Of a DNA stretch of 64,000 bases, positions 32,882 to 63,726 are shown one piece after another (the stretch's first letter is position 1; the number at the start of each line of letters is the position of its first letter). The notes beneath the pieces are model-generated. The model saw only the letters and a list, made by a program, of their open reading frames with translations, did not search any database and was not told the DNA's origin. Source of the stretch: Corallococcus macrosporus DSM 14697 (GTDB lineage Bacteria; Myxococcota; Myxococcia; Myxococcales; Myxococcaceae); assembly GCF_002305895.1 (NCBI RefSeq), contig NZ_CP022203.1, positions 1,776,501 through 1,840,500 on the forward strand. The letters run 5' to 3'. The position numbers and the translations under genes are program-made.

Positions 32882-34792
32882 TTACGCGACAGCGGTGTAC
32901 GAGCCGAACCAGTACGTTGCGGCGAGGCCTGGGAGGTTTTGGTGGCTGTAGAAGGCGAAGCCGTCTCTGTCGGGCACCATGACGGTGGGGTTGCCGACGA
33001 AGCTGCCGCTGGTGGCGTAGGGGGAGAGGGTGATGGAGGAGGGCACGCCAGGAAAGCGACTGCGGAACGTCACCGAGCCTCCCCCGGACAGGTTGTCGTG
33101 CGCGGCGGTGTCGCTATTGCTGTACTGGAGGCCGAGCCGGCCCACCTCGCGCACGCTGCCCGCCAGCTCGAAGGAGGTGTTGTTGGCGGTGCTACTCAGG
33201 GGGAGTCGCAAGGTGCGCGTCCAGGAGGCGAAGGTGGCGGTGAGGCTGGCGTCGTGGAGGAACTCCACCTCGTTGCGCGAGAGGCGGAAGCCGGCGGCTG
33301 CGGCGCCGGTGGTGTCCCGGGCCCAGGCGCTCCCATTCCAGGCGGCGTTGAGGGTGAACCACACCGAGTCGCTGTCGGCGTAGAGGCGCAGCCGCGCGGC
33401 GACGCCGCCCGCGCCCTGGGCGTCGAGGAGGAGGACGCGGCCGGAGCCGAGGACGGGCTGGAGGATGGCCTTGTGCTGGCCCGCCGCCGCCTCGTTGCCG
33501 CGGAAGTGCCCGCCGCCGAAGGCCGCGAGGACTTCGGCGAGGGCGGACTCGACGGTGCCCGCCGTCAGCAGGTTGCCCGCGTCCGCGACGGAGATGGCGG
33601 AGGCTGCGTGGGCCCCCACGGCCTGGGTGACATGTCCGTTGAGGAAGCCCAGCAGCGCGGCCACCTGCTGCCGCAGATTTCCGGCGGCGAGGGCGTGGGG
33701 CGTCCCGGCCAGCACGTCTCCTCCGACGCGAGACGCACCAGGGCTTCCGGCCGTCGTCTCTCCGAGGCGGGTGACGACCTCCTGGAGTTGAGCCTGGACG
33801 CTGGTGGCGGCAACGTAGCCATGGGGCGAAGCGGCGATGGCGCTGGCGTGGTGGGCCCCGGTAGCCGCGCCCTGGTGGGCGTTGAGGAAGCCCAGCAGCG
33901 AGGAGAGCTGCGCGTCCACGGTGCTCGCAGGCAGGAGGTTGGGCGTGCCGGGCACCGCGTCCGCGCCCACGCGGGAGGCGCCCGGTGTGCCGGAGGCGGC
34001 CGAGGAGAGCTTGTCCGCGACTTCGTCTACCGCCTCCTGCACAGTGGTGGAGGTGATGAAGCCATGGGGCGCGTAGTCCACGGCACTCGCCTCGTGCCTC
34101 CGGGCGGCGCCGGAGAAGTGTCCGGCCAGCTCGGCGTCCACCTCGTCCAACGTCGCCTGCACCGTGTCCGCGCTGGGGCTCAGCACGGCCCATGTGCCGC
34201 TTTCCACGGCCACGGAGGTGCCGCGCGCGAAGATGAAGGCTTGGCGGCGCGAGGTGTCCAAGTCCGCGGCGAGAATCTGCGTCTGCCCCGGGCGGCGCCG
34301 GACGTCACACAGCAGCAGCTCGTCGGGCTGGAGGGCGGGCTTGGGCGCCTGGCCGACGGGGCCCTCCGGCGCCTGGCGCACCACCAGCTCGAAGGACTCG
34401 TCGCGGCGGAAGTACACCTGCTGGGAGTTGCCGTCCGTGCGTGGCTCGGACAGCAGGCGGGTGAAGCGCAGGAAGATGCCCACCCACCGCTCGCTGCCCG
34501 AGGTGGAGACGTCGGTGGGGATGCCCGACAAGTCCACTGCGCAGTCCACCGTTTGCCCGGTGCCGAAGAAGATGCGCTGGCCGAGGTTGTCGTAGGCGCG
34601 GCCCGGGGCCGTCAAGTCGACGGAGAGGTTGGGCACCGGGGAGTGCGGCGCGGGCACCGCCCCGGAGATGACGCCGTGGACACCCAAGTCCGAGGCGAGG
34701 TTTCTGTCTGCCTGCTCCAACTGCGCGAAGGCCAAGTCCAGCTCGGCCTCCGTCACGCGCTGCCTGAAGAAAAAATCCAGCCGGTTACTCAT
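32882..34792 (-). CDS. Tail fibre/adhesin-like protein with internal repeats
   Basis: 636 residues, MSNRLDFFFRQRVTEAELDL. Residues 1-200 are the conserved attachment region. Residues 215-430 contain three ~80-residue repeats with shared phrases: HEASAVDYAPHGFITSTTVQ, HHASAIAASPHGYVAATSVQ, and GASRVGADAVPGTPNLLPAS beside GASRVGGDVLAGTPHALAAG. The C-terminal 180 residues are beta-rich, probably the receptor-binding tip. GGAGGG precedes the ATG, and a conserved late promoter-like element lies at 34814-34845. The extra copy of the first codons at 37060 comes from a duplication. Confidence 0.8.
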   Translation of the reverse strand: MSNRLDFFFRQRVTEAELDLAFAQLEQADRNLASDLGVHGVISGAVPAPHSPVPNLSVDLTAPGRAYDNLGQRIFFGTGQTVDCAVDLSGIPTDVSTSGSERWVGIFLRFTRLLSEPRTDGNSQQVYFRRDESFELVVRQAPEGPVGQAPKPALQPDELLLCDVRRRPGQTQILAADLDTSRRQAFIFARGTSVAVESGTWAVLSPSADTVQATLDEVDAELAGHFSGAARRHEASAVDYAPHGFITSTTVQEAVDEVADKLSSAASGTPGASRVGADAVPGTPNLLPASTVDAQLSSLLGFLNAHQGAATGAHHASAIAASPHGYVAATSVQAQLQEVVTRLGETTAGSPGASRVGGDVLAGTPHALAAGNLRQQVAALLGFLNGHVTQAVGAHAASAISVADAGNLLTAGTVESALAEVLAAFGGGHFRGNEAAAGQHKAILQPVLGSGRVLLLDAQGAGGVAARLRLYADSDSVWFTLNAAWNGSAWARDTTGAAAAGFRLSRNEVEFLHDASLTATFASWTRTLRLPLSSTANNTSFELAGSVREVGRLGLQYSNSDTAAHDNLSGGGSVTFRSRFPGVPSSITLSPYATSGSFVGNPTVMVPDRDGFAFYSHQNLPGLAATYWFGSYTAVA

Positions 34793-34962
34793 GCCTGCAC
34801 CCTCCAGAGGAAGGCAAAGGCAGGGCGCGAGAAATCGGGGACATCCCGCAGGGCGTTCAGTGCAGCGTCGTCGTGTCGCCCAGCTCACTGAGCCCCAGCT
34901 CCCAGTGCTCCGGGAGAATGGACGGCAGGGGCTCCACGAGGTCCACGAAGTGGGTGTGGGCG
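34763..34962. repeat. ~195-bp direct duplication, copy 1
   Basis: Closely similar to 37050-37243. It contains the first codons of the fibre gene, the promoter-like element and a remnant of the 3' end of tail protein I ([18 protein letters not shown]). The two copies flank the plus-strand gene at 35233. Confidence 0.88.
34814..34845 (-). promoter_or_regulatory. Late promoter-like element, copy 4
   Basis: ATGTCCCCG, 14 bases, GCCTTTG on the minus strand. It ends 22 bases before the fibre gene ATG. See also 37095, 44245, 53166 and 63925. Confidence 0.75.
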
Positions 34963-35232
34963 AGCTGTGCGGAGGCGCCGGGGGAATGAGCGGCCCCCCC
35001 CCCAGCCGTCATTCGTGCCGTAGCGAGGCGTTCAAGGGGTGGGGTGATTTGGACCTGGAGGAGGGACTCGTCGACGCGTTCCTCGCCTCGGCGAAACGGG
35101 GGACTGCGTCGGGAAGTCCGAATGGGGCAAGGAGACGAAGAGCCTGGCCGCTGCAGATGGCGCTGGTCTTGCTCGCACTAAGCGAGAATCGCGCTCTGCG
35201 CTTCATACGGGACCCAAGTACCATTCGGAAGC

Positions 35233-36957
35233 ATGGACTCTCAGACGGCACTCCGCGAGTTGGAAGCTGAGCTGGACAAGGACGTCAAGGCCTTGCCGCT
35301 CCTGAAACTACCATTTCGGACAGTAGTCTCGGCTCTCTACGGCGTTGTGGATAACCGCTTTCATGGGCCACGGACCTCGCCAGAGAGTCGAGAGAACGAA
35401 GATGTTGGGTCCGCGATAGTTAATAGACTGTCATATCTGCTCCCGCTGCTTATCGACTGTCCTGTGGAGCCGTTGGGACTTAATTTGGCAAATGCGCTAA
35501 GTCCGATCACGCCACAATACCTAGCGGAGCTGGGATTTCTTCTGGCATATGCACACTTCAGTGAGCTGATGCCCGAGGTGCATCGAGGTTACTATTCGGT
35601 AAGCGGAGATGTTGCGTCCGGATTTAGGTTGACACACGCAAGTGATAGTTTTCGCTACTATGAGGCCCGAGATATCGCACTCACCGAAATCTCCATGCCG
35701 TACTATCTCCGGCCAAGACTGAAATTCGAAGCTCAACTGGTCGACGTCGTGAATCGCTTCGTTAAGCAAAAGTTCAGCCATGCGGGAGACCTCGTCACGA
35801 CTGTCACGGTTATCGCAAAGCAGCTCTATGAGGAGTTCCGGCTCGGGATTCGTGAAATTCCAATACTGACGGACGAAGGTTGCAACGCGGCATTTGGGGT
35901 GTCGCTCGAGAAGTTCAACCGCTTCCGATCAGCCTGGGCGGGCATTAGTGAGCTTTGCCTTCATCTAGCTGATGCATTTGCGCACCGAGCTCGCTCCTCA
36001 AGTGGCCGGCGTCAGCGCGAACTGTTCTTTGAAAGCATGGAGTGGACAGCGCCACTGCTTCGGCGGAATTTTCTTGAGGGGCTGGTGCTTGCTCTTACGG
36101 GACTCTCCGGAGGCGAGATTGACCATCTAATGCAGTTCTACTCATTCTCCCCTGCGGAGAAGCGTGCAAGACAAGTGGGAGATGGTTTCTTTCCGCCGAT
36201 TGCTCAGCTCGCCGATTCTCTCCATTTTAATCCAGATGCCCTTCGGTCGATGCTGTCTAGTCGGAACGTGCTGTATGTCTTGAATAGGGCGCATACTCAG
36301 GTCTTTGATGAGCAGGTTTCCGGCCATCTTGAGCCGGCCCTCATCGAAATTGCCAAGCGGCCCCTATCCCGCCTTCCGGATGTCTTCCTGGCGCAGGAAA
36401 TCGACTGGGGTGGAGGCGACATCGACCTCCTTGTGTATAGCGAGAGGGAGAATAGCGCTCTCCACATTCAGGCCAAAGCGGCAATTGCTCCACAAGGTGC
36501 ACGCATGGTCGCGGCGACTGAAGGCCGAGTAAAGGAGGCTCTTCGTCAACTAAGCGCACTCCGAAAGCTTCCGCCTGCTCAGATTGATGCGATTGTTGAG
36601 AAGGCAATCGGTCGCCCTGTTCGTGGCGTGAATTTGGTGGATGTAGTTCTCTGTCGGGCATCGTTCGGTACTGCGAAGATATGGGAACGGCTAGGGTCCG
36701 TTGCAGTTGTTAATCCGTCCATTGTGGCAGCAGTTGTGGAGAGGCTTCTTGCTACGTCCAGTTCAAACCCAGTCACGGCATTCGCCGCGACCGTGCAGGA
36801 AGTTGCTGACGACATTCAGCGTCGAGCCGCCACGGGCTGGGAGGAAGCTACGATAGAGCTTGGTCGCACAACTCTCACAATGCCGTTGCTCAGGCTGGAT
36901 TCCAACGTGCTCTGGGTGGAGCGTCAGAAATCGTATGAGCGCCTTATGGGCAAGTGA
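35233..36957 (+). CDS. Cargo protein with PD-(D/E)XK-like motif
   Basis: 574 residues, opposite in strand to the structural genes and visibly less GC-rich. Residues 1-380 are helical with no recognised family. Near residues 393-416 it has GGGDIDLLVYSERE ... ALHIQAKA, the D-x(n)-(E/Q)-x-K pattern of restriction-like nucleases, with Gln in place of Glu. Similar domains occur in defence nucleases. It stands alone, flanked by a ~195-bp duplication of the structural junction, which marks it as inserted cargo. Defence function is inference from motif and context. Confidence 0.72.
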   Translation: MDSQTALRELEAELDKDVKALPLLKLPFRTVVSALYGVVDNRFHGPRTSPESRENEDVGSAIVNRLSYLLPLLIDCPVEPLGLNLANALSPITPQYLAELGFLLAYAHFSELMPEVHRGYYSVSGDVASGFRLTHASDSFRYYEARDIALTEISMPYYLRPRLKFEAQLVDVVNRFVKQKFSHAGDLVTTVTVIAKQLYEEFRLGIREIPILTDEGCNAAFGVSLEKFNRFRSAWAGISELCLHLADAFAHRARSSSGRRQRELFFESMEWTAPLLRRNFLEGLVLALTGLSGGEIDHLMQFYSFSPAEKRARQVGDGFFPPIAQLADSLHFNPDALRSMLSSRNVLYVLNRAHTQVFDEQVSGHLEPALIEIAKRPLSRLPDVFLAQEIDWGGGDIDLLVYSERENSALHIQAKAAIAPQGARMVAATEGRVKEALRQLSALRKLPPAQIDAIVEKAIGRPVRGVNLVDVVLCRASFGTAKIWERLGSVAVVNPSIVAAVVERLLATSSSNPVTAFAATVQEVADDIQRRAATGWEEATIELGRTTLTMPLLRLDSNVLWVERQKSYERLMGK

Positions 36958-37049
36958 GGGTGTCTTTGGTTGTTTTTTAGCTCTCGATTGTCTGATGTCC
37001 CATCCCATCATGATCTTGTTCACAGGACTCTGTCTCTGCTGCGGTTAGC

Positions 37050-37243
37050 TGAAGAGGTCCAGCCGGTTGCTCATGCCTGCGCCCTCCAGTGGAGTGCAAA
37101 GGCATGGCGCGAAAAATCGGGGACATGCCGCAGGGCCTTCAGTGCAGCGTCGTCGTCTCGCCCAGCTCGCTGAGTCCCAGCTCCCAATGCTCGGGGAGAA
37201 TGGGCGGCAGGGGCTCCACCAAGTCCACGAAGTGGGTGTGCGC
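37050..37243. repeat. ~195-bp direct duplication, copy 2
   Basis: Partner of 34763-34962. It carries the true 3' end of tail protein I, the promoter-like element and a fragment of the fibre gene start (MSNRLDLFS, then stop). Confidence 0.88.
37095..37126 (-). promoter_or_regulatory. Late promoter-like element, copy 5 (duplicated)
   Basis: ATGTCCCCG, 14 bases, GCCTTTG. It precedes only the fibre-gene fragment, so it is the displaced copy produced by the duplication. Confidence 0.7.
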
Positions 37244-38353
37244 GGGCTTGAGGTACTCGACGAGGGTGCGCAGGCGCTGGCGCTCCGCGGGCGAGAGGAG
37301 GCGCTCCACCTCGACGTTGAAGGCGTAGCGGGCGAAGCGCTCCGAGGGCCCCAGCACCCAGTCCACGCCCAGCTCGGACTCGCCCAGCACGAGGGTGTCC
37401 GAGGCGAAAGGGGAGATGGCCCGCACCTCGATCCCCAAGAAGAAGCGGATGGCGTTGCGCAGGCCCAGCGCGGTGCCCTTCTGGCGATACATGTCCACGA
37501 GGACGGAGGCCAGCCGGCGCCGGGCGAGGACGTCCAGCTCGAAGGCGAAGGGGTTGCCCAAGTCCAGGAGGATGGCGTCGAGGAAGGCCTCCGGAGCGCG
37601 CTCCAAGTCGAAGACGTCGGGGAAGGCGTCCAGGTCCGCGAGGAGCAGGTCGGTCACCTCCTGGAGACAGGAGATGAAGCGGCGCAAGTCCCCCGTCACG
37701 TCGTCGCGGCGGTTGTGGCCCGGCAGCATGTCCCAGAGCTGGAAGCTCCGGGAGGACGGCCGAGCTGGACGGAAGCCCGCGAAGGTGGCGCGGTGGTAGG
37801 GGGCGAGCACAGGGTTGTCGTGCGTGTCCGTCACGGCCTCTGCACGCACTTCGTAAACCACGTCCGGCGTCAGCTCCGTGTCGAGGACGAGGTGGACGAG
37901 GGGGCCGTCGGCAGCGGCCTCGAGGGCGGCCACAGGGACTGCGGGGGCGCCACGAGGCGTGAAGGTGAAGCGCGCCGTGGGCGGCACCCGCACGTCCTCG
38001 TCGAAGGCGAGGCGCACCGACTTGGGTCCCACGGCCTGCGCGCCCACGAGGCGCGGGGCCGTCCTGTCTTCCACGGTGAAGGTGTACGTCTCGTCAAGGA
38101 GGTTCTCGCCGCCGGCCGTGGCGGAGACGACGCGCACGGAGACGGTGGCCTGGCTGGCCAGCGGCACCGCCGGGTGGAGCACCACACGCAGGGTGTCCGC
38201 CGTCTGCCTCACCTCCGCGAGTGGCCCCGCGAAGGCAGGCGCCACCTCGACGCTGGCCCCTCCCTCGAAGGCGAGGACGTCGTCCACCCAGACGGTATCC
38301 GCTGCACGAGCCCCGTCTGGAGGGGATGAGCCGGAGCGCGCAAGGTGGCGCGC

Positions 38354-38689
38354 ATGGCGAATGCGGAGCTGTGGAAGAAGCGAGTGGAGGAGTGGCGCAC
38401 CAGTGGGCTGAGCGCGGAGGAGTACTGCCGTGGGAAGGAGTTCACGCCCAGCCCGCTGTACCGGTGGTCGAGTCGACTGGCGAAGGCGGGGCGTGGAGAA
38501 GAGGAGGCGGCGGTGCCGCTGGTGAGGCTGGTTTCGTCCCCAGCCCGCGTCGAAGCCGCACCGGGTGCAGGACTCGTCGTCATTGAGGCACACGGGGCGC
38601 GGGTGCTGGTGCCGGCGGGGGCGGACGTGGCGACGGTGGGTGTAGCGCTGGCGGCGCTGGGTGCGGCGAGCCGGGGCGGGGCGCGATGA
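38354..38689 (+). CDS. tnpA: IS66 TnpA-like protein
   Basis: 111 residues from ATG 38354 (a GTG at 38345 adds three). N-terminal helix-turn-helix: [40 protein letters not shown]-like segment, typical of IS66 Orf1. The C-terminal half is variable. Its stop overlaps the ATG of the next gene. TnpA is an accessory DNA-binding protein of IS66 transposition. Confidence 0.82.
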
Positions 38690-39027
38690 TTCCGCACGGC
38701 GTCGAAATCTTCCTGGGCCTGGAGCCGATTGACTTGCGCTGGGGCTTCGAGCGGCTGTCGGGGTTGGTGGAGGAGAGGCTGGGACGCAAGCCGCGCAGCG
38801 GCGCCCTCTTCGTCTTCTTCGGCAAGCGGCGCACGGCGCTGAAGGTACTCTTCTACGACGGGACGGGGCTGTGCCTCTTCTACAAGCGGCTGGACACCGG
38901 CTGCTTCCAGGTGCCGCGAGGGTTGGAGGAAGGCGCTACCAGCCTGGCGGTGGAGGAGCACGTGCTGGAGGAGTTGCTGGACGGGCTGCGCGTGGAGGCG
39001 CCCAGGCGGGGCCCTCGCCCACATTGA
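38686..39027 (+). CDS. tnpB: IS66 TnpB protein (IS66 Orf2 family)
   Basis: 113 residues. Family landmarks: [77 protein letters not shown]. This is the small Orf2 needed for IS66 transposition, function not fully known. ATGA overlap with tnpA indicates coupling. Confidence 0.92.
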
Positions 39028-39104
39028 GAGGCGCCAGGCGCACCACCGCGCGGGGGCACCAGGCAGGTGTCGACAGCGCGGTGGCGAGTGGTTACAAGGC
39101 CGCG

Positions 39105-40802
39105 GTGTCCACGCACGAGTCTCCCATTTCCGCGCAGGCGCGCATCGCCGAGCTCGAGGCGCTGTTGAGCGCCGAGAGGCAGCGCGCCGCGCAGTTGGAG
39201 AGGGAGCGGGACGTGCTGAAAGCCTCGCACGAGAGGCTGCGGCTGGAGTTGGAGTTACTCAAGCGCCGCCTCTTCATGGCCAAGGCGGAGCGGGTGGACA
39301 CTCAGCAGTTGGAGTTGGAATTCGCCCAGAAGCTGCGCGCGCTGGAAGAGGTGGCCGGCACGCTGGGCATGGCCTCGGCGGAGGCGTCAGGCGGCGCGGG
39401 GGCGAAGCAGAAGTCCAAGCCCAAGGGCCGGCGGGACTTGAAGAGTCTGCCGCTGGAAGAGAGGCGGGTGGAGATTGCGGACCCTCTCTTCGACGAGCTG
39501 GTGGCCCAGGGGAAGGCGGAGAAAATCGGCTTCGAGGAGAGCTGCAAGCTGGCCTGGCAGCGCGGCGGTATGCGGCGCCTCGTCATCGCCCGGGTGAAGT
39601 ACCGCACCGTGGGGGCCGACGGGGAGGCCACGCTGGCCTCGGCCATGGCGCCCAAGGAAGTCTTCTTCCGCTGCCTGGCGGCGCCCTCGCTGCTGGCCCA
39701 CCTGGCCACCGAGAAGTACTGCGACGGACTGCCGTTGTTCCGCATGGAGAAGCGCCTGGCCCGCGACGGCGTGGCGGTGGACAGGGGGACGATGGCGCGG
39801 TGGCTGGAGGACATGGGCGCCACCCTGGGCACCACCGTGGTGGCCGCCATGCGCGAGGAGGCGCTGGCCACCGCCTTCTGCATCGCCACCGACGCCACGG
39901 GCGTGGCGGTGCAGCCGGCCCCCGCCGAGGGGCAGCGCCAGGCGTGCCGACGCGGCCACTACTTCGTCCAGGTAGTCGACAGGGACGCCGTCTTCTTCGA
40001 GTACACGCCGAAGGAGACGAGCGCCGCGGTGCTGGAGCTCTTCAAGGGCTTCAAGGGCTACGTGCAGGCCGACGCCAAGAGCGTCTACAACGCCCTCTTC
40101 CGACCCGCCGAGGACGCGCCCGCTGACGGCGAGGAGGGGGTGTGTCAGGAGGTGGCGTGCTGGGCGCACTGCCGCCGGGGCTTCTGGGAGGCGGCGATGG
40201 CCAAGGACGTCGTCGCCAGGGAGGGGCTGGCGCGCATCAGCCGCCTCTTCCAACTCGAAGACACGTGGAGGGACAAGCCCCCGGAGGAGATTCACCGGCT
40301 GAGGCATGCCCACCTGCGTGCACACGTGGACGCCTTCTTCGTCTGGGCCCAGGAAGAGTACGAGAAGGTGCGGGAGCAGCGCGGCCTCTTGCGCCGGGCC
40401 CTCGGCTACGCCCTGCGCCAGCGCGAGGCGCTGCGCTGCTTCCTCGACGACGGACGGCTGCTGCTTGAGAACAACCGCAGCGAGAGAGAGTTGAGGAGGA
40501 TTGCCGTCGGACGCAAGGCTTGGCTCTTCGTCGGGAGCGATGACCATGCCGAGCGCGCCGGCCACCTCTTCACCCTCATCGCCACCGCGCGGCTGCACGG
40601 ACTCGAGCCGGAGGCCTACCTGCGCGACGTCCTGCGCGTGCTGGCCTACTGGCCCCGCGAGCGCTACCTGGAACTCGCCCCCAAGTACTGGGCCGCCACG
40701 CGCGCTCGCCTCCTCCCCGCCGAACTCGACGCCGAGGTGGGCGAACTCACCGTCCCGGCGCCGGTTGCGGCCTCGTCCGAAGAGCAGTCGCCGCCGCGCT
40801 GA
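39105..40802 (+). CDS. tnpC: IS66 TnpC transposase
   Basis: 565 residues from GTG 39105 (VSTHESPISAQARIAELEAL); GTG 39081 is an alternative. Leading coiled coil, then the zinc-type linker region, then the DDE core: FCIATDATGVAVQPAPAEGQ (Asp), GYVQADAKSVYNALF (Asp), CWAHCRRGFWEAAMA, and LLLENNRSERELRRIAVGRK with the catalytic Glu, followed by WLFVGSDDHAERAGHLFTLI. Complete and uninterrupted, so probably active. Confidence 0.93.
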   Translation: MSTHESPISAQARIAELEALLSAERQRAAQLERERDVLKASHERLRLELELLKRRLFMAKAERVDTQQLELEFAQKLRALEEVAGTLGMASAEASGGAGAKQKSKPKGRRDLKSLPLEERRVEIADPLFDELVAQGKAEKIGFEESCKLAWQRGGMRRLVIARVKYRTVGADGEATLASAMAPKEVFFRCLAAPSLLAHLATEKYCDGLPLFRMEKRLARDGVAVDRGTMARWLEDMGATLGTTVVAAMREEALATAFCIATDATGVAVQPAPAEGQRQACRRGHYFVQVVDRDAVFFEYTPKETSAAVLELFKGFKGYVQADAKSVYNALFRPAEDAPADGEEGVCQEVACWAHCRRGFWEAAMAKDVVAREGLARISRLFQLEDTWRDKPPEEIHRLRHAHLRAHVDAFFVWAQEEYEKVREQRGLLRRALGYALRQREALRCFLDDGRLLLENNRSERELRRIAVGRKAWLFVGSDDHAERAGHLFTLIATARLHGLEPEAYLRDVLRVLAYWPRERYLELAPKYWAATRARLLPAELDAEVGELTVPAPVAASSEEQSPPR

Positions 40803-41074
40803 AAGCGTCTCATTCACCCCGCCAGCATGCGGCGTCCGCCCGGCCCACGGAAGACGGGGCTCGTGCAGCGGATACCCCAGACGCGCGTGGTCGCCCGGGC
40901 AATGCCGTCCGCGCCGACGTCCACCAGCTCCAGCTCCAGCGCGGCATCGACGGGGACATCCGCCTCCTCGGGGCCCGGAGCGCGGTTGAGGAGGAGGGGG
41001 CGGCGCGTCTCGGCGAAGAGGGAGACGGTGTCGACGTAGAGGGCGGGCAGCTCAACCGTGGCCATGGGGCTTCC

Positions 41075-44244: not shown

Positions 44245-44279
44245 GACAAAGGCCTGCAGCCCACTTTTTTCGGGGACAT
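44245..44279 (-). promoter_or_regulatory. Late promoter-like element, copy 3
   Basis: ATGTCCCCG and GCCTTTG separated by 17 rather than 14 bases, in front of the baseplate J gene. Confidence 0.65.
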
Positions 44280-44285
44280 GGGGAC

Positions 44286-45127
44286 GGTGCTTGGCGTTGG
44301 AAGCTGCCTCGTCGTCCTCGTACGAGGCCCAAGCGCTTCAGTACCTGGCGCTCCGGCCACAGGTAGGATGGGGCACATCAACTGGTGTGCGAATTCCCAT
44401 CGACGTGAGGAGTCCTTCCAGCATGGATGCAGCGTGGTTCTGCCCGACGTTCGACTTCCGACGCCACCCGCCTGACGAGGTGATGCTTCGAGGAACTCGC
44501 CTCCTGATTGAGGACATCGGCACCAAGCACGTCGACCATTGCTTCTGCGGCCGGTGTGGCGTGCCGGTTTACAGGTCGCCCACCGACGGGGAGAGGACAC
44601 TCGGTGGCCGCGTAGCGCGCCTGTCGCATTACCCTGGCTATGACCATGTTCCATGTTCCGAGCGCCCATCGAAGGCCAGCGCTACGGAGCGCGGCGCCAC
44701 TCCATCAGGACGCCCGTCCTTTGTTTCCGGGCCAGAGACGACGCTGGTACCCGTTTGGCTGCCAGCCCGCGAAGCCCCGCGTGGACTGGTGTTGCCGCGC
44801 ACCTTTGTTGATGGTCCGGTGAGCCGCTTGGTTGATGGCCTCGGGACTACGGTTCCCCAGTCGCGTCAAGGCCTTGGCCGCCTCCGGCGGTGCCCTTCGG
44901 GCAGCCCTGACTCGACCGGAGAACCGCAGGATGGGAGCAATCAGTTCCGCTTCTCGCGGAATCTGCTGTCGCGTCAATGGCTTGGGTCCCATCACGAGCG
45001 AGATTTCTGGTGGTCCGGCTCTGTGATGGCATTTACGGAGCCTCTCCTCGGGAGTCCCTCAACCAGTGTGCGCGAGAGCAGGCGTCCGTCCCTCAAATAG
45101 CGTGCGCGGCAACACCTGGGTGGAGAG
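44286..45127. other. Cargo-site region with unassigned fragments
   Basis: About 840 bases. A plus-strand frame near 44424 reads MDAAWFCPTFDFRRHPPDEV with HCFCGRCGVPVYRSPTDGER, possibly a broken metal-binding protein. Minus-strand frames at 44378-44647 and 44705-44995 are equally plausible. None has a supported start. It looks like decayed cargo beside the gene at 45128. Confidence 0.35.
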
Positions 45128-45619
45128 ATGGGCTCTTCTCTCGACCATGAACGCAAAATGGCGCGGCCACGCGTCGCTTCAGGAGTTGCACGCTCACGCT
45201 CGAGTGCCCGGGTCAGTGTTCAGCAGATCGCGGACAGCCTGCCCGCCTTGCTCGAAAATCCCTTTGCGACAGGTGGGCGACTTCGCGACTTCATCCGTCC
45301 CATCCATCTGATTGACGGTGCGGACGAGGGAAGCGAACCAATGCTGTGGTGGGGCCGTTTACATAGCGTCAGCCATGGCAATGCGATGAATTGGCTCAAC
45401 ATCCGCACGCGTGACCGCTCCTCAGCAGCTTTCTGGGTGAAGCACAGTGTGGTGCCGAAGTTCCGCTCCGCGTGGGAGGAAGACCGGATTGTCCTCGCAT
45501 ATGCCTCCTTCGTGAGGGAGACCAAGAACGGGCGTCCGAAGCTGCGCTGGGACATTCATGACAAGGGGCAGATCGCCCTCGTGCCTGTAGAGCACGAATC
45601 GTGTTTGACGAATCTGTAA
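45128..45619 (+). CDS. Hypothetical cargo protein
   Basis: 163 residues (MGSSLDHERKMARPRVASGV). The C-terminal 115 residues look folded (LWWGRLHSVSHGNAMNWLNI, AFWVKHSVVPKFRSAWEEDR, GRPKLRWDIHDKGQIALVPV). No family recognised. It is opposite to the surrounding structural genes and ends 55 bases from the gp25 stop. It is less GC-rich than they are. Placement between gp25 and J at a conserved promoter-like site parallels the two other cargo loci. Confidence 0.6.
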   Translation: MGSSLDHERKMARPRVASGVARSRSSARVSVQQIADSLPALLENPFATGGRLRDFIRPIHLIDGADEGSEPMLWWGRLHSVSHGNAMNWLNIRTRDRSSAAFWVKHSVVPKFRSAWEEDRIVLAYASFVRETKNGRPKLRWDIHDKGQIALVPVEHESCLTNL

Positions 45620-45674
45620 CAGGACGTGAGCGGAGTTTCCGGCGTGAGGTGGATGCAACGCTGCTACTCGCGGC

Positions 45675-46061
45675 TCAAGGTCCCCGCTGGAGGGGAACGT
45701 CGAAATCCGCTGCCGTGTCGCCCTCGCGCACGCGCACATGAAGCGTCAGTATGGCTGCGTCCTGCTCGACGCGGATCTGCACGAGCTGGACGCCAGGCAG
45801 CCAGCGCGCGAGCGCGTCACGGACGTACACGCGCGCCAGCTCCGCCAGCACCGTGTCGTTGCGCTGGTGGCGAAGGCGCGAGAGGCCCGCGCCGAAGCTG
45901 GTGCGCCAGGGGAGCTCGCCTGTGGAGTGGGGCGTGGTGCCTTCCGTCAGCAGCACCTGCCGCACCTTCGAGGCGAGCAGCTCGGCCCCGGTGCCGGAGG
46001 CGAAGTCCCGCTTTTTGTCTCGGCCGAAGGGGACGAGGAGATTCTGGAGCACTCGACTCAT
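45675..46061 (-). CDS. gp25-like baseplate wedge protein
   Basis: 128 residues: MSRVLQNLLVPFGRDKKRDF ... LTEGTTPHSTGELPWRTSFG, AGLSRLRHQRNDTV. The GELPWRTSFGAGL block is the GPW/gp25 signature (a T4 gp25-type wedge). It initiates sheath assembly at the baseplate. It is 7 bases downstream of the previous gene. Confidence 0.85.
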   Translation of the reverse strand: MSRVLQNLLVPFGRDKKRDFASGTGAELLASKVRQVLLTEGTTPHSTGELPWRTSFGAGLSRLRHQRNDTVLAELARVYVRDALARWLPGVQLVQIRVEQDAAILTLHVRVREGDTAADFDVPLQRGP

Positions 46062-53165: not shown

Positions 53166-53197
53166 GACAAAGGCATCGGACGGCAAATCGGGGACAT
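53166..53197 (-). promoter_or_regulatory. Late promoter-like element, copy 2
   Basis: ATGTCCCCG, 14 bases, GCCTTTG, 21 bases before the gene at 53145. The divergent cargo gene starts 36 bases away on the other side. Confidence 0.75.
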
Positions 53198-53232
53198 CGA
53201 TAGACGCAGCACCAAATCTGCGTGGGGGACTC

Positions 53233-53703
53233 ATGAGCGCGTTGGTCTGGTCAGGGTCGTTTCGGATTTCAGAGCTGCTGGCGCGGTGCATGGACGAACA
53301 GGTCCTGCCTCCAGAGTCGAAGGCCGTCTATCTGGTCTCTCGGCGAGGCTGGGAGGGGGAGCCCACCGATGCCTGTATCCCGCTCTACGTCGGAGGGAAC
53401 ACGGGCTCCTCGCAGCGCTTTCGCACTCGGGTCGGGGACCTGATCGCCGACCTGCATGGCTTCTACGGTGGCGGGACAGGTCACCACAGTGGTGCGCAGG
53501 AGCTTCGGCGGTGGTGCATCAGCAACGAGGTCCACCCAGGACGACTCTTTCTGGGCTGGGCCACGAAGAAGCCCTGGTGTGGGAGGTGTACCGAAGTTCT
53601 TCTCGCGAAGAAGTTCGCTCCCTCATGGGCTGAGCGGGCGCCTCTGTGCAATGTCAGGCGCCCGCCGGGGTGCAGCACTCATGGAAAGTACGTGACTGGC
53701 TGA
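53233..53703 (+). CDS. GIY-YIG-like cargo protein
   Basis: 156 residues on the opposite strand to the tail operon. [13 protein letters not shown] ... [20 protein letters not shown] fits the GIY-YIG pattern (VYLV and LYVG strands, then the helix with a conserved Arg). A later Glu in [15 protein letters not shown] fits the catalytic Glu. Cys residues in WCGRC and CSTHG are extra. GIY-YIG enzymes cleave DNA or RNA. The stop is 3 bases from the tail-tube stop, facing it. Homing or defence cargo is possible. Confidence 0.6.
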
Positions 53704-53706
53704 GTC

Positions 53707-54168
53707 CTACTTGGCCAGCTCGAAGAAGTCGTAGGTGAGGGTGACGCTTTCGATGACGTTCTCGTCACTCTCGTTGTCCCACTCCCCGGCGATGAACTTC
53801 ACGGGCCACGCGTGGGAGAGGCTCCACCGGCGCAACGTGGTGCCGTCCCTATCTTGCTGGACGATGTCGAGGTTGCGCTTGTAGAGCGCATCGGGCAGGC
53901 CCAGTCCGCTCGTGGTGTGCACGACGTCCTGGAACCAGTCGAAGAGTTCGTGATCCTGCGTGGCGCCGCGCTCGAGGGTGACGTCGGAGAACGTGAGGCG
54001 CCCCGGGGACTTGTTGGGGATGAGGCTGCCGCCCTCGAAGTATTGGACGTTGGCGACCTCGACGGACAACTCGCTGCACTTCTGGAAACCGGAGTGCCCG
54101 AGGCCGTCAGCCTCACAGAGAAACTTGAAACGCTTATGGAAGCTGCGCGGCTGTCCGATGATGGCCAT
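53707..54168 (-). CDS. Tail tube protein
   Basis: 153 residues: [40 protein letters not shown]-like segment, [28 protein letters not shown], ending YDFFELAK. This is the gp19-like inner tube family of contractile tails and injection systems. It follows the sheath gene by 11 bases, the usual order. Confidence 0.9.
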
Positions 54169-61687: not shown

Positions 61688-62377
61688 TCATCCGACGTCG
61701 TGGAAGGAGAGGGCCTTGTCGACGCTCTCCCGGTTGAGGGGCTTGTTGAGGTCGAGGGGCCAACCGACGTCCTCTACGGTGGGCTTGGGCGGACGCTCCG
61801 CGGGGGCGCTGCTGTTGGGCAGGCCGAACTGCTTCTCCACTCGGCCCAGGCGCTGGTGCTGCTCCTTCACACTGCCCTCCAGCGCGCGGACGGCGTCGGT
61901 GAGCTTCGTCAGTCCTTCCATGACGCCGGAGGAGTCGGGGCTCGGTGCGGGCGGAGCCGGCTGAGGAGCCGGCGCGGCGTTGGCGGCCTTGGCGCGCGCC
62001 TCGACGTCCTCCTCGTCCTCGGAGTCGTCTTCGTCCTCTTCCAGTGCGTCGGCGAGCGCGCGCAGGTGCTGGGCCACCTCCACCACGCGCACGCCGTCGA
62101 TGCCGTCCGTGGACGTCAGCGCTTCGACGAGGGCCGTCACTGCCTCAAGGGCCTGCTGGGCGGAGGCGAGGACGGTGTCCTCGGCCTTGGAGGTGTCCGA
62201 GGTGGTGGGGCTGGCGCCCTCGGCCGGCGTGGAGTCCTGGGGAGCGTCGTGCATGTCGTCTCTCTTCACGAGGAGGAAGCGGTGCTTGTTGGCGGCCCTG
62301 TCCACGAGGGACACCTCCTCCACCACCATGTCGACGAGGCGGTGGACGGGCGCGGAGCCTTGGGTGGTGCTCGTCAT
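61688..62377 (-). CDS. Scaffold-like phage protein
   Basis: 229 residues. N-terminal [20 protein letters not shown] is the SLVDRAAN block seen after prohead protease genes. The middle is acidic ([20 protein letters not shown]), followed by a coiled coil ([19 protein letters not shown]). Acidic coiled-coil proteins in this position act as scaffolds for capsid assembly. Starts inside a 4-base overlap with the protease gene. Confidence 0.75.
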
Positions 62378-63726
62378 GCGGCCTCCGGCTGGGAGTCAGC
62401 GGCAGGTGTTTCGGAAGGGGGGGGCTCGGTAGGGGGCGATGCCTCGGGGAGGCGGCGCGCGGTGCCGCCAATGGAGAAGCCCGTCAGTTGCCCGTCCTTC
62501 ACCCGGCCCCAGAGCTCGTCGGAGAGGACGCGCACGGCGAGAAGCCAGGTGCCCTTGCGCACCGGCACTTCGCCCAGGTTGAAGTCGACGGGGGCCAGGT
62601 AGCTCTCCAGCACCTTCACGTGCCCGTTGACGCGCATCTGGTGCATGAGCCCCAGGCCGCCGAACTCCTCCATGAAGCGGTGTGCCGCCTGACGAATCTC
62701 CGCGGCGGAGTAGATGTCGCCCTGCGCGTCCACCGTCTCCGGCTCCAGGACGACGCCCAGGACGTACCGCTCGTCGTCGGGCTCGACGCCCTTGAGGAGC
62801 GGCTTCGTCGCGAGGAAGGAGGCGGTGTCGGGCGACTCCTCCGGCTGCCAGTCGTCCACCGTGAAGTCCGGGCCACCCTCCAGCGCCTTCGCGGCGGGCT
62901 GGTAGTTGGAGACGAGGAGCTGCGTCAGCACGGAGGAGCCGCCCACGCCGCGCATGGCGGCGATGGTGCGAGGCGTCCGGATGCGCTTCACCACGAAGCC
63001 GGAGCCCTTCAGCATCCCGGGCAGCTTGCCCCGGATGCCGTACGTCATGAGCCAGCGGCCCTTCAGCGACTTGAGGACGCCGTAGAAGCGCTCCTCGTCG
63101 AAGTCGCCCTCACCGACGTCGACGTTGTACCCAGGGTACGGAGGGTCGAGAAAGAGGACGGTGTCCTTCCCGTCGTACTTGCGGACCACCTTCTCGTAGT
63201 CGCCGCCGTACACCTTCACGCGCTTGAGGCGGGGGGCGTGCTGCTCGATGCGGGCGAGCGTCTTCGCCTCGACGCCCATGCCGTTGGGGCTGACGCTGCG
63301 ACCGCGCAGCTTCCCGTAGGAGAAGTGCGTCAGGTAGAGGAAGCGGTGCAGGCGCTCCACGTCCCCCTTCGGCTTGGAATCGAAGAGGCTCTTGAAGGTC
63401 TTCTCGTCGCCGACCCACGGCAGCTTCTTCAGCTTGGCGAGGCCCGCTGGCGTCAGCTTCTGGAGGAGCCGGTACGCGTCGGCGATTTCGGGGTCCGCGT
63501 CGTTGATGGCCTCGACGTCCGAGGGGGCCTTCTCGAAGAGGACGGCGGCGCTGCCGGCGAAGGGCTCCACGTACGTCTTGTGCGCGGGCAGCATTGCCAC
63601 CAGGCGCTTCGCCAGGCGCTTCTTGCCAGCAGGGCTGCCCCAGATGGTCTTCTCCACCGGCTCACCCTGGAGGGACTCCAGGACGTGCCGGGCCCGGGCG
63701 AGGGCTTTCGTGAGGGCGTCACCCAT
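62374..63726 (-). CDS. Fusion of Dam-type adenine methylase and XkdF-like prohead protease
   Basis: 450 residues. Residues 25-275 are a D12 class N6-adenine methyltransferase: [36 protein letters not shown] (motif I), [16 protein letters not shown] (motif IV DPPY). Residues 320-430 match XkdF-like putative proteases of PBSX-type phages: [68 protein letters not shown]. These functions are normally separate genes; no stop lies between them. The methylase could protect phage DNA while the protease matures the head. Confidence 0.85.

Follow-up and report, generated by a model that had tools for sequence, protein, structure and literature searches.

A repeated tail-gene junction as a probable recombination scar at a cargo dock in contractile-tail prophages of Myxococcaceae

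Lambdoid phages carry morons, i.e. extra genes of deviating base composition that lie between unbroken structural genes. In P2- and P4-type phages, variable genes are accommodated in hotspots, small loci of ~1-5 kb that are bounded by two conserved phage genes, turn over their gene content rapidly and are rich in defence systems (2022, PMC9122126). The effector-immunity modules of the Vibrio cholerae T6SS, in turn, undergo sequential displacement by homology-facilitated illegitimate recombination (Kirchberger et al. 2017, PMC5361080). Here we describe a repeated junction of two tail genes in a prophage of the Myxococcaceae, which we interpret, with a probability of about 0.7, as the scar left by recombination out of register at a cargo dock that is a standing feature of a contractile-tail prophage family.

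The window, i.e. the whole stretch of 64,000 nucleotides that was analysed, corresponds to positions 1776501-1840500 of a single-contig, 8.97-Mb genome of the genus Myxococcus. The surroundings of the junction are those of a contractile-tail prophage, with genes for a protease with methyltransferase, a sheath, a tape measure, a GPD-type hub, baseplate protein J and tail protein I. In a single open reading frame (ORF) at 62374-63726, a D12-type adenine methyltransferase is fused with an XkdF-like head protease. The main part and the C-terminus of tail protein I, comprising the codons downstream of an IS66 insertion, are encoded at 37139-38294 on the reverse strand (Tail_P2_I, E = 0.0047; Big_5, E = 6.5e-5) and exhibit 87-97% identity to uninterrupted genes of relatives from the same clade. 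The IS66 element occupies 38295-40875 on the forward strand (DDE_Tnp_IS66, 8.9e-62) and is accompanied by an 8-bp target duplication; its breakpoints were located by alignment against the intact paralogue in L035, a second prophage of the same family in the same genome, whose junction is empty. As the element splits tail protein I, the prophage is probably not fully functional, and hence defective, in this strain. The preliminary description of this DNA, which stated that both neighbours of the cargo gene had been left intact, is thus right as far as the cargo insertion is concerned, but not for tail protein I in this strain. Directly downstream of the dock lies a gene for a putative tail fibre of 636 aa (32882-34792, reverse strand), the first 130 aa of which are conserved across the prophage family. 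It has no match in Pfam, PHROG or NCBIfam, and therefore the designation "fibre gene", used already in the preliminary description, can be retained only as a positional name that reflects its place next to the junction. Searches of a phage collection with tail protein I, the fibre and the cargo protein yielded no match.

The junction between these two genes occurs twice. A repeat search revealed a gapless direct repeat of 198 nt, at 34769-34966 (left copy) and 37051-37248 (right copy), both on the reverse strand, with 89% identity and a spacing of 2282 bp, and blastn on the junction copies gave 90.05% identity over 191 bp. This corroborates the direct duplication of ~195 bp noticed earlier around the 574-aa cargo gene; an alignment of 198 bp without gaps, instead of the short scattered matches that would have spoken against a duplication, also rules out chance similarity of the copies. 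Either copy comprises the last ~35 codons and the stop of tail protein I, a 67-bp intergenic region with a start motif (TGTCCCC...CCTTTGC), a ribosome-binding site (RBS) and ~24 bp from the start of the next gene, in accord with the earlier account of the end of tail protein I, a promoter-like element (whose promoter role is putative) and the start of the following gene. The motif lies at 37095-37125 in the right copy and at 34813-34843 in the left one. The full-length tail I reading frame is joined to the right copy only, and the left copy starts with a displaced C-terminal remnant of tail I (codons ~357-391). The right copy is followed by a short non-coding stretch of 93 bp (36958-37050), which extends to the stop of the cargo gene and whose only other matches are in M. 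dinghuensis and M. qinghaiensis, then by the cargo gene, a stretch with a fragment of ~175 bp resembling IS5-family transposases (35001-35174, forward strand) and, finally, the displaced tail I end. The fragment was recognized by DNA matches of 75-82% to chromosomal sites of other Myxococcaceae, several of which lie within transposase ORFs. A short target duplication with element ends at both cargo borders, the sign of insertion of an IS or transposon, was not found at the window joints. Transposition with a long target duplication was rejected in view of the 198-bp overlap, the different overlaps at other loci and the presence of only an internal transposase fragment. Likewise, an assembly error or duplication can be dismissed, because the same arrangement is found in two other species and the window genome is a single contig. 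The joint at ~34966 is present in the window, in M. dinghuensis and in M. qinghaiensis, and in none of the 93 other genomes of the family; as the joint and the start of the remnant at codon 357 are identical in all three species, they go back to one founding event.

The cargo gene (35233-36957, forward strand) runs antisense to the tail operon and encodes 574 aa with a PD-(D/E)XK-like signature (GGGDIDLLVY...LHIQAKA). Its GC3 is 0.56, as compared to 0.88-0.97 in the adjoining tail genes. Besides the window, it is carried by M. dinghuensis and M. qinghaiensis, members of the same genus (loci L034 and L036); single-protein and profile searches of the phylum sample revealed nothing beyond these three genomes, and none was found in the viral contigs. 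Comparison with the M. qinghaiensis copy (dN 0.052, dS 0.228) indicates purifying selection. Full-length relatives with 29% and 26% identity are encoded on two Rhizobium conjugative plasmids. One of them, on a plasmid of Rhizobium sp. Kim5 (L093, 6968-12915), directly adjoins genes for GajA (E 3e-304) and GajB (2e-242) of the Gabija system as well as an AbiJ-NTD4 gene, and the other adjoins genes for a UvrD helicase and a member of a PD-(D/E)XK nuclease family. Throughout four proteins at 26-90% identity, D398 and K415 are invariant and position 413 is Q or E. The 574-aa protein has no match in PADLOC, PHROG or NCBIfam and none above the cut-off in Pfam, sequence searches of the PDB gave no convincing relative, and a structure model based on three sequences (mean pLDDT 36.7) is too poor for use of the fold. 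An assignment to Gabija or to another system listed in PADLOC was rejected, as there is no profile match and the protein is only a neighbour of Gabija in Rhizobium. Our best guess, based on these sequence features, is a PD-(D/E)XK-like nuclease that may act against phages.

To see the junction in its different states, the gap between the tail I stop and the fibre ATG was measured in Myxococcaceae genomes (one per species, draft assemblies included) and viral contigs. In 18 related prophages the two genes are adjacent, with a gap of 67 bp in 15 loci, 68 bp in one, and 14 and 17 bp in two distant relatives. The preliminary description had asked for a relative with the single junction; such relatives exist, down to L035 in the same genome, and two junction copies without cargo, the arrangement that would have counted against an insertion, occur at none of the 18 empty loci. 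In another 22 loci, including the window and some that are related and hence do not represent independent events, the gap is 484-4644 bp long and filled with different ORFs, which amount to at least a dozen mutually unrelated coding cargos. These include the 574-aa protein (three loci), a 223-aa protein (two), a 234-aa archaemetzincin-like protein (two), GT4-conflict-like proteins (three), SnoaL-like, DUF3885, beta-helix and trypsin-like proteins, proteins of 168 and 205 aa and an apparent IS3-type element; the 168-, 205- and 223-aa proteins have no family match. Some of the cargos resemble anti-phage defence genes, namely a TmtA-like sacsin/NOV_C protein (PADLOC 9.5e-68) and a 1409-aa metallophosphatase-STAND-TPR protein (L052, 367-4596, genome G001), which is similar to nucleotide-binding defence proteins. 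The locus thus exhibits, with 18 empty and 22 occupied cases, the variable genes between two conserved phage genes that define an accessory or defence hotspot of phages, and the defence-like contents are suggested by similarity (TmtA here; GmrSD_N, HEC-05 and NYN/HEC-09 at another dock).

The way in which the cargos are joined to their surroundings differs between loci. C-terminal remnants of tail I lie between cargo and fibre, starting at codon 357 in the window, L034 and L036, ~337 in L052, 317 in L067 and 312 in L046, and they are short or decayed in L043 and L049; such displaced 3' ends behind a newcomer cargo are a feature of sequential displacement. Three contigs (L056, L057 and L050) stop within the final 30 codons of tail I, where a duplicated tail I end would be expected to interrupt short-read assemblies. 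In L046, L052 and L067 only tail I sequence is duplicated, and the intergenic part is single. The most informative case is L046, with the series tail I, SnoaL-like cargo, tail I remnant, 234-aa cargo and fibre, which can be compared with L038, where the 234-aa cargo stands alone. The two loci are 95.7% identical over the 3312 bp that begin with the remnant and include the 234-aa cargo and the fibre, as compared to 90.8% over 5570 bp upstream, and the L046 remnant is 94.2% identical to tail I of L038 versus 90.8% to its own tail I. This step suggests that L046 is an L038-like phage whose upstream part has been replaced by that of another lineage, so that the locus combines two phage lineages that meet inside tail I, with both flanking genes whole, although general phage mosaicism could account for part of the step. 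In terms of sequence pattern, a homologous anchor upstream and a non-homologous joint downstream, at the border between the SnoaL-like cargo and the remnant, are both present.

The remaining loci were examined for the same signal. The remnant is closer to another tail I than to its own in L046 and L052; the contrast is weak for the window and L034, and no other tail I is closer to the L067 remnant than its own, a pattern that duplication in situ would also give. In a tree of the 197-bp junction copies (sequences of 165-197 bp, moderate to weak support), the left and right copies of one locus are not sisters, as expected if the two arms stem from different phage lineages. The window remnant differs from its own tail I by 7 synonymous and 2 nonsynonymous changes over a short stretch, and this small count points the same way. 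Furthermore, the window and L034 share ~99% identity in the upstream part and the cargo, but only 81-96% in the fibre region (200-bp bins); since the joint is common to both and the fibre regions have diverged, the downstream arm was probably exchanged after the founding event.

According to the reading that we favour, the dock extends from the stop codon of tail protein I to the operon-start motif of the fibre, where inserts spare both structural genes. An incoming phage segment that ends in tail I plus cargo may pair with a resident prophage via the homologous upstream tail genes, and its far end would then be joined illegitimately within the tail I of the resident. Selection would retain only products that have one complete tail I upstream as well as an undamaged motif and fibre downstream, and because only such products would persist, the tail I end of the resident would be stranded as a displaced remnant past the cargo. 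In the window, the cargo DNA would be preceded by sequence of the upstream parent that includes the first 24 bp of its fibre gene, which would explain why the duplication spans the whole junction. The donor and the immediate ancestor of this founding event appear not to have survived, and its steps are modelled on L046; the process that L046 seems to record is the one proposed for the T6SS immunity arrays of V. cholerae (PMC5361080).

Other explanations of the repeat have to be weighed against this one. If a circle with the cargo and a single junction copy had entered by a single homologous crossover of the Campbell type, two full junction copies would have been left; both window copies indeed cover the same 198 bp, their anatomy alone fits a circle and displacement equally, and their 10% divergence would suit a circle from another phage lineage. 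We regard this as unlikely, given that the foreign tract in L046 takes up all 5.6 kb compared upstream of tail I, far above the 240-bp repeat that a circle would need, that three loci repeat tail I without the intergenic part, and that neither an att site nor a circularising enzyme was observed. The circular intermediate suggested in the preliminary description is not needed, although it retains some probability for the founding event in the window itself. Its other suggestion, an incoming fragment with its own homologous arm, is supported in part: the single-junction relatives and the tree of the copies speak for it, and only the clean two-armed insertion that it implies is not seen in L046. 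Altogether, upstream homology combined with illegitimate joining downstream fits the varied joints better than clean homologous insertion or crossover with a small circle.

It would be simpler to assume that the junction was duplicated in place when the cargo was captured, by filling of a staggered break or a transposition-like target duplication of ~200 bp, and has drifted since; no second phage would be necessary, and the IS5-like fragment adjoins the cargo. However, known IS families produce target duplications of a few bp, the IS66 element in the window left only 8 bp where ~200 bp would be required, the joints and the lengths of the overlaps vary between loci, and neither the separation of left and right copies in the tree nor the excess of synonymous changes in the (short) remnant is what drift from one template would give. 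We consider duplication in place quite improbable. The prospect is poorest for the collapse of tandem prophages, in which recombination and deletion between adjacent prophages would have left junction, cargo and junction. Several genomes do carry two or three prophages of this family, but a single slot holds many unrelated cargos at >20 loci while most other gene junctions are constant, random deletion ends would seldom spare both structural genes without the selection already invoked, and the DNA between the window copies is not derived from a prophage. This explanation can hardly be upheld, and recombination out of register at a standing dock remains the preferred one.

The common denominator of the dock and of two further variable sites is the start motif. 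With the pattern GTCCCC-N12-20-CTTTG, six sites were found in the window versus 0.45 expected, all on the strand of the phage genes and followed by an RBS; a pattern with a fixed 18-nt spacer found none. Five of the six fit a stricter form; two of these precede the fibre starts, and the others precede baseplate J, the protease-methyltransferase gene and the gene that follows the tube. The spacers span 17-20 nt, which is loose for a promoter, and a scan of the junction for sigma-70-type promoters found none. We infer from its positions that the motif is a putative promoter of the downstream operon; if the downstream gene has its own start signal, an insert upstream of it would leave its expression unaffected. 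All three motif-bearing gaps that were measured across relatives are variable, and most gaps that lack it differ by no more than a few bp, with the exception of the junction between the 150-aa and 120-aa genes after the fibre, which varies in 5 of 27 loci. The second dock (44278-45700, motif at 44278 on the reverse strand) lies between a gp25-like gene of 126-128 aa and baseplate J, and its gap, the gp25-like gene included, is 402-4402 bp across relatives. In L059, a duplicated baseplate J start of 336 bp (1253-1587 and 2643-2978; 90 and 87% identical) flanks ~1 kb at this dock, a scar of the same kind as that in the window. The third dock (53196-53810, to ~54180) lies between a tube-like gene and a 257-aa gene and again precedes the start motif; the span from the sheath to the 257-aa gene is 1719-5707 bp in 14 loci. 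Cargos of the third dock in relatives (L095-L108) include GmrSD-type, HEC-05-like, NYN, DUF4238 and HNH proteins, identified by profile similarity for GmrSD_N (3.4e-24), HEC-05 (1.9e-33) and NYN/HEC-09. The idea of cargo exchange between docks was dropped, as no protein is common to different docks in the sample.

Taken jointly, these observations allow for a broader and decidedly tentative reading, in which several docks are built in upstream of one motif, the remnants act as portable homologous arms by which cargos are swapped or transferred between prophages through ordinary recombination, and the 574-aa family is an undescribed defence nuclease spread in this way; the exchanged downstream arms of the window, L034 and L036 are what suggests such a role of the remnants. 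Be that as it may, the dock pinpoints, to the base, where accessory genes, including several defence-like ones, are acquired and exchanged by prophages of social soil bacteria, and each event leaves a readable record. It makes it possible to test how phages add cargo harmlessly to a packed structural operon, and whether the uncharacterised dock genes, among them those of the 574-aa PD-(D/E)XK-like family, serve as anti-phage systems. The dock also indicates that an imperfect direct repeat in a prophage need not be a simple duplication but can record where two phage lineages were joined.

With respect to the known systems, the dock resembles the P2/P4-type hotspots in being a small variable locus between conserved phage genes with defence-like contents (PMC9122126). 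However, the P2/P4-type hotspot is located next to the cos site and is bounded by gpA and gpQ, whereas the Myxococcaceae dock is found in the tail operon, between tail I and fibre, with two additional points upstream of a common motif, and its events are marked by displaced remnants of structural genes, unlike those of the P2/P4-type hotspots. With morons it shares the insertion of genes of foreign composition without breakage of structural genes, but the Myxococcaceae slot is common to many unrelated cargos and duplication of the junction is frequent. The orphan 3' ends of Rhs and CDI systems (discussed in PMC5361080) are likewise displaced C-terminal ends behind a new module; the tail I remnant, on the other hand, is not itself the variable part. 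The V. cholerae T6SS arrays are similar in having an upstream homologous anchor, an illegitimate downstream end and displaced 3' remnants stacked behind the newcomer (in L046, cargo A, tail I remnant and cargo B), and they differ in that here the module is a phage tail, the remnant is a structural-gene end with no known role, and the cargos are a mixture and not immunity genes.
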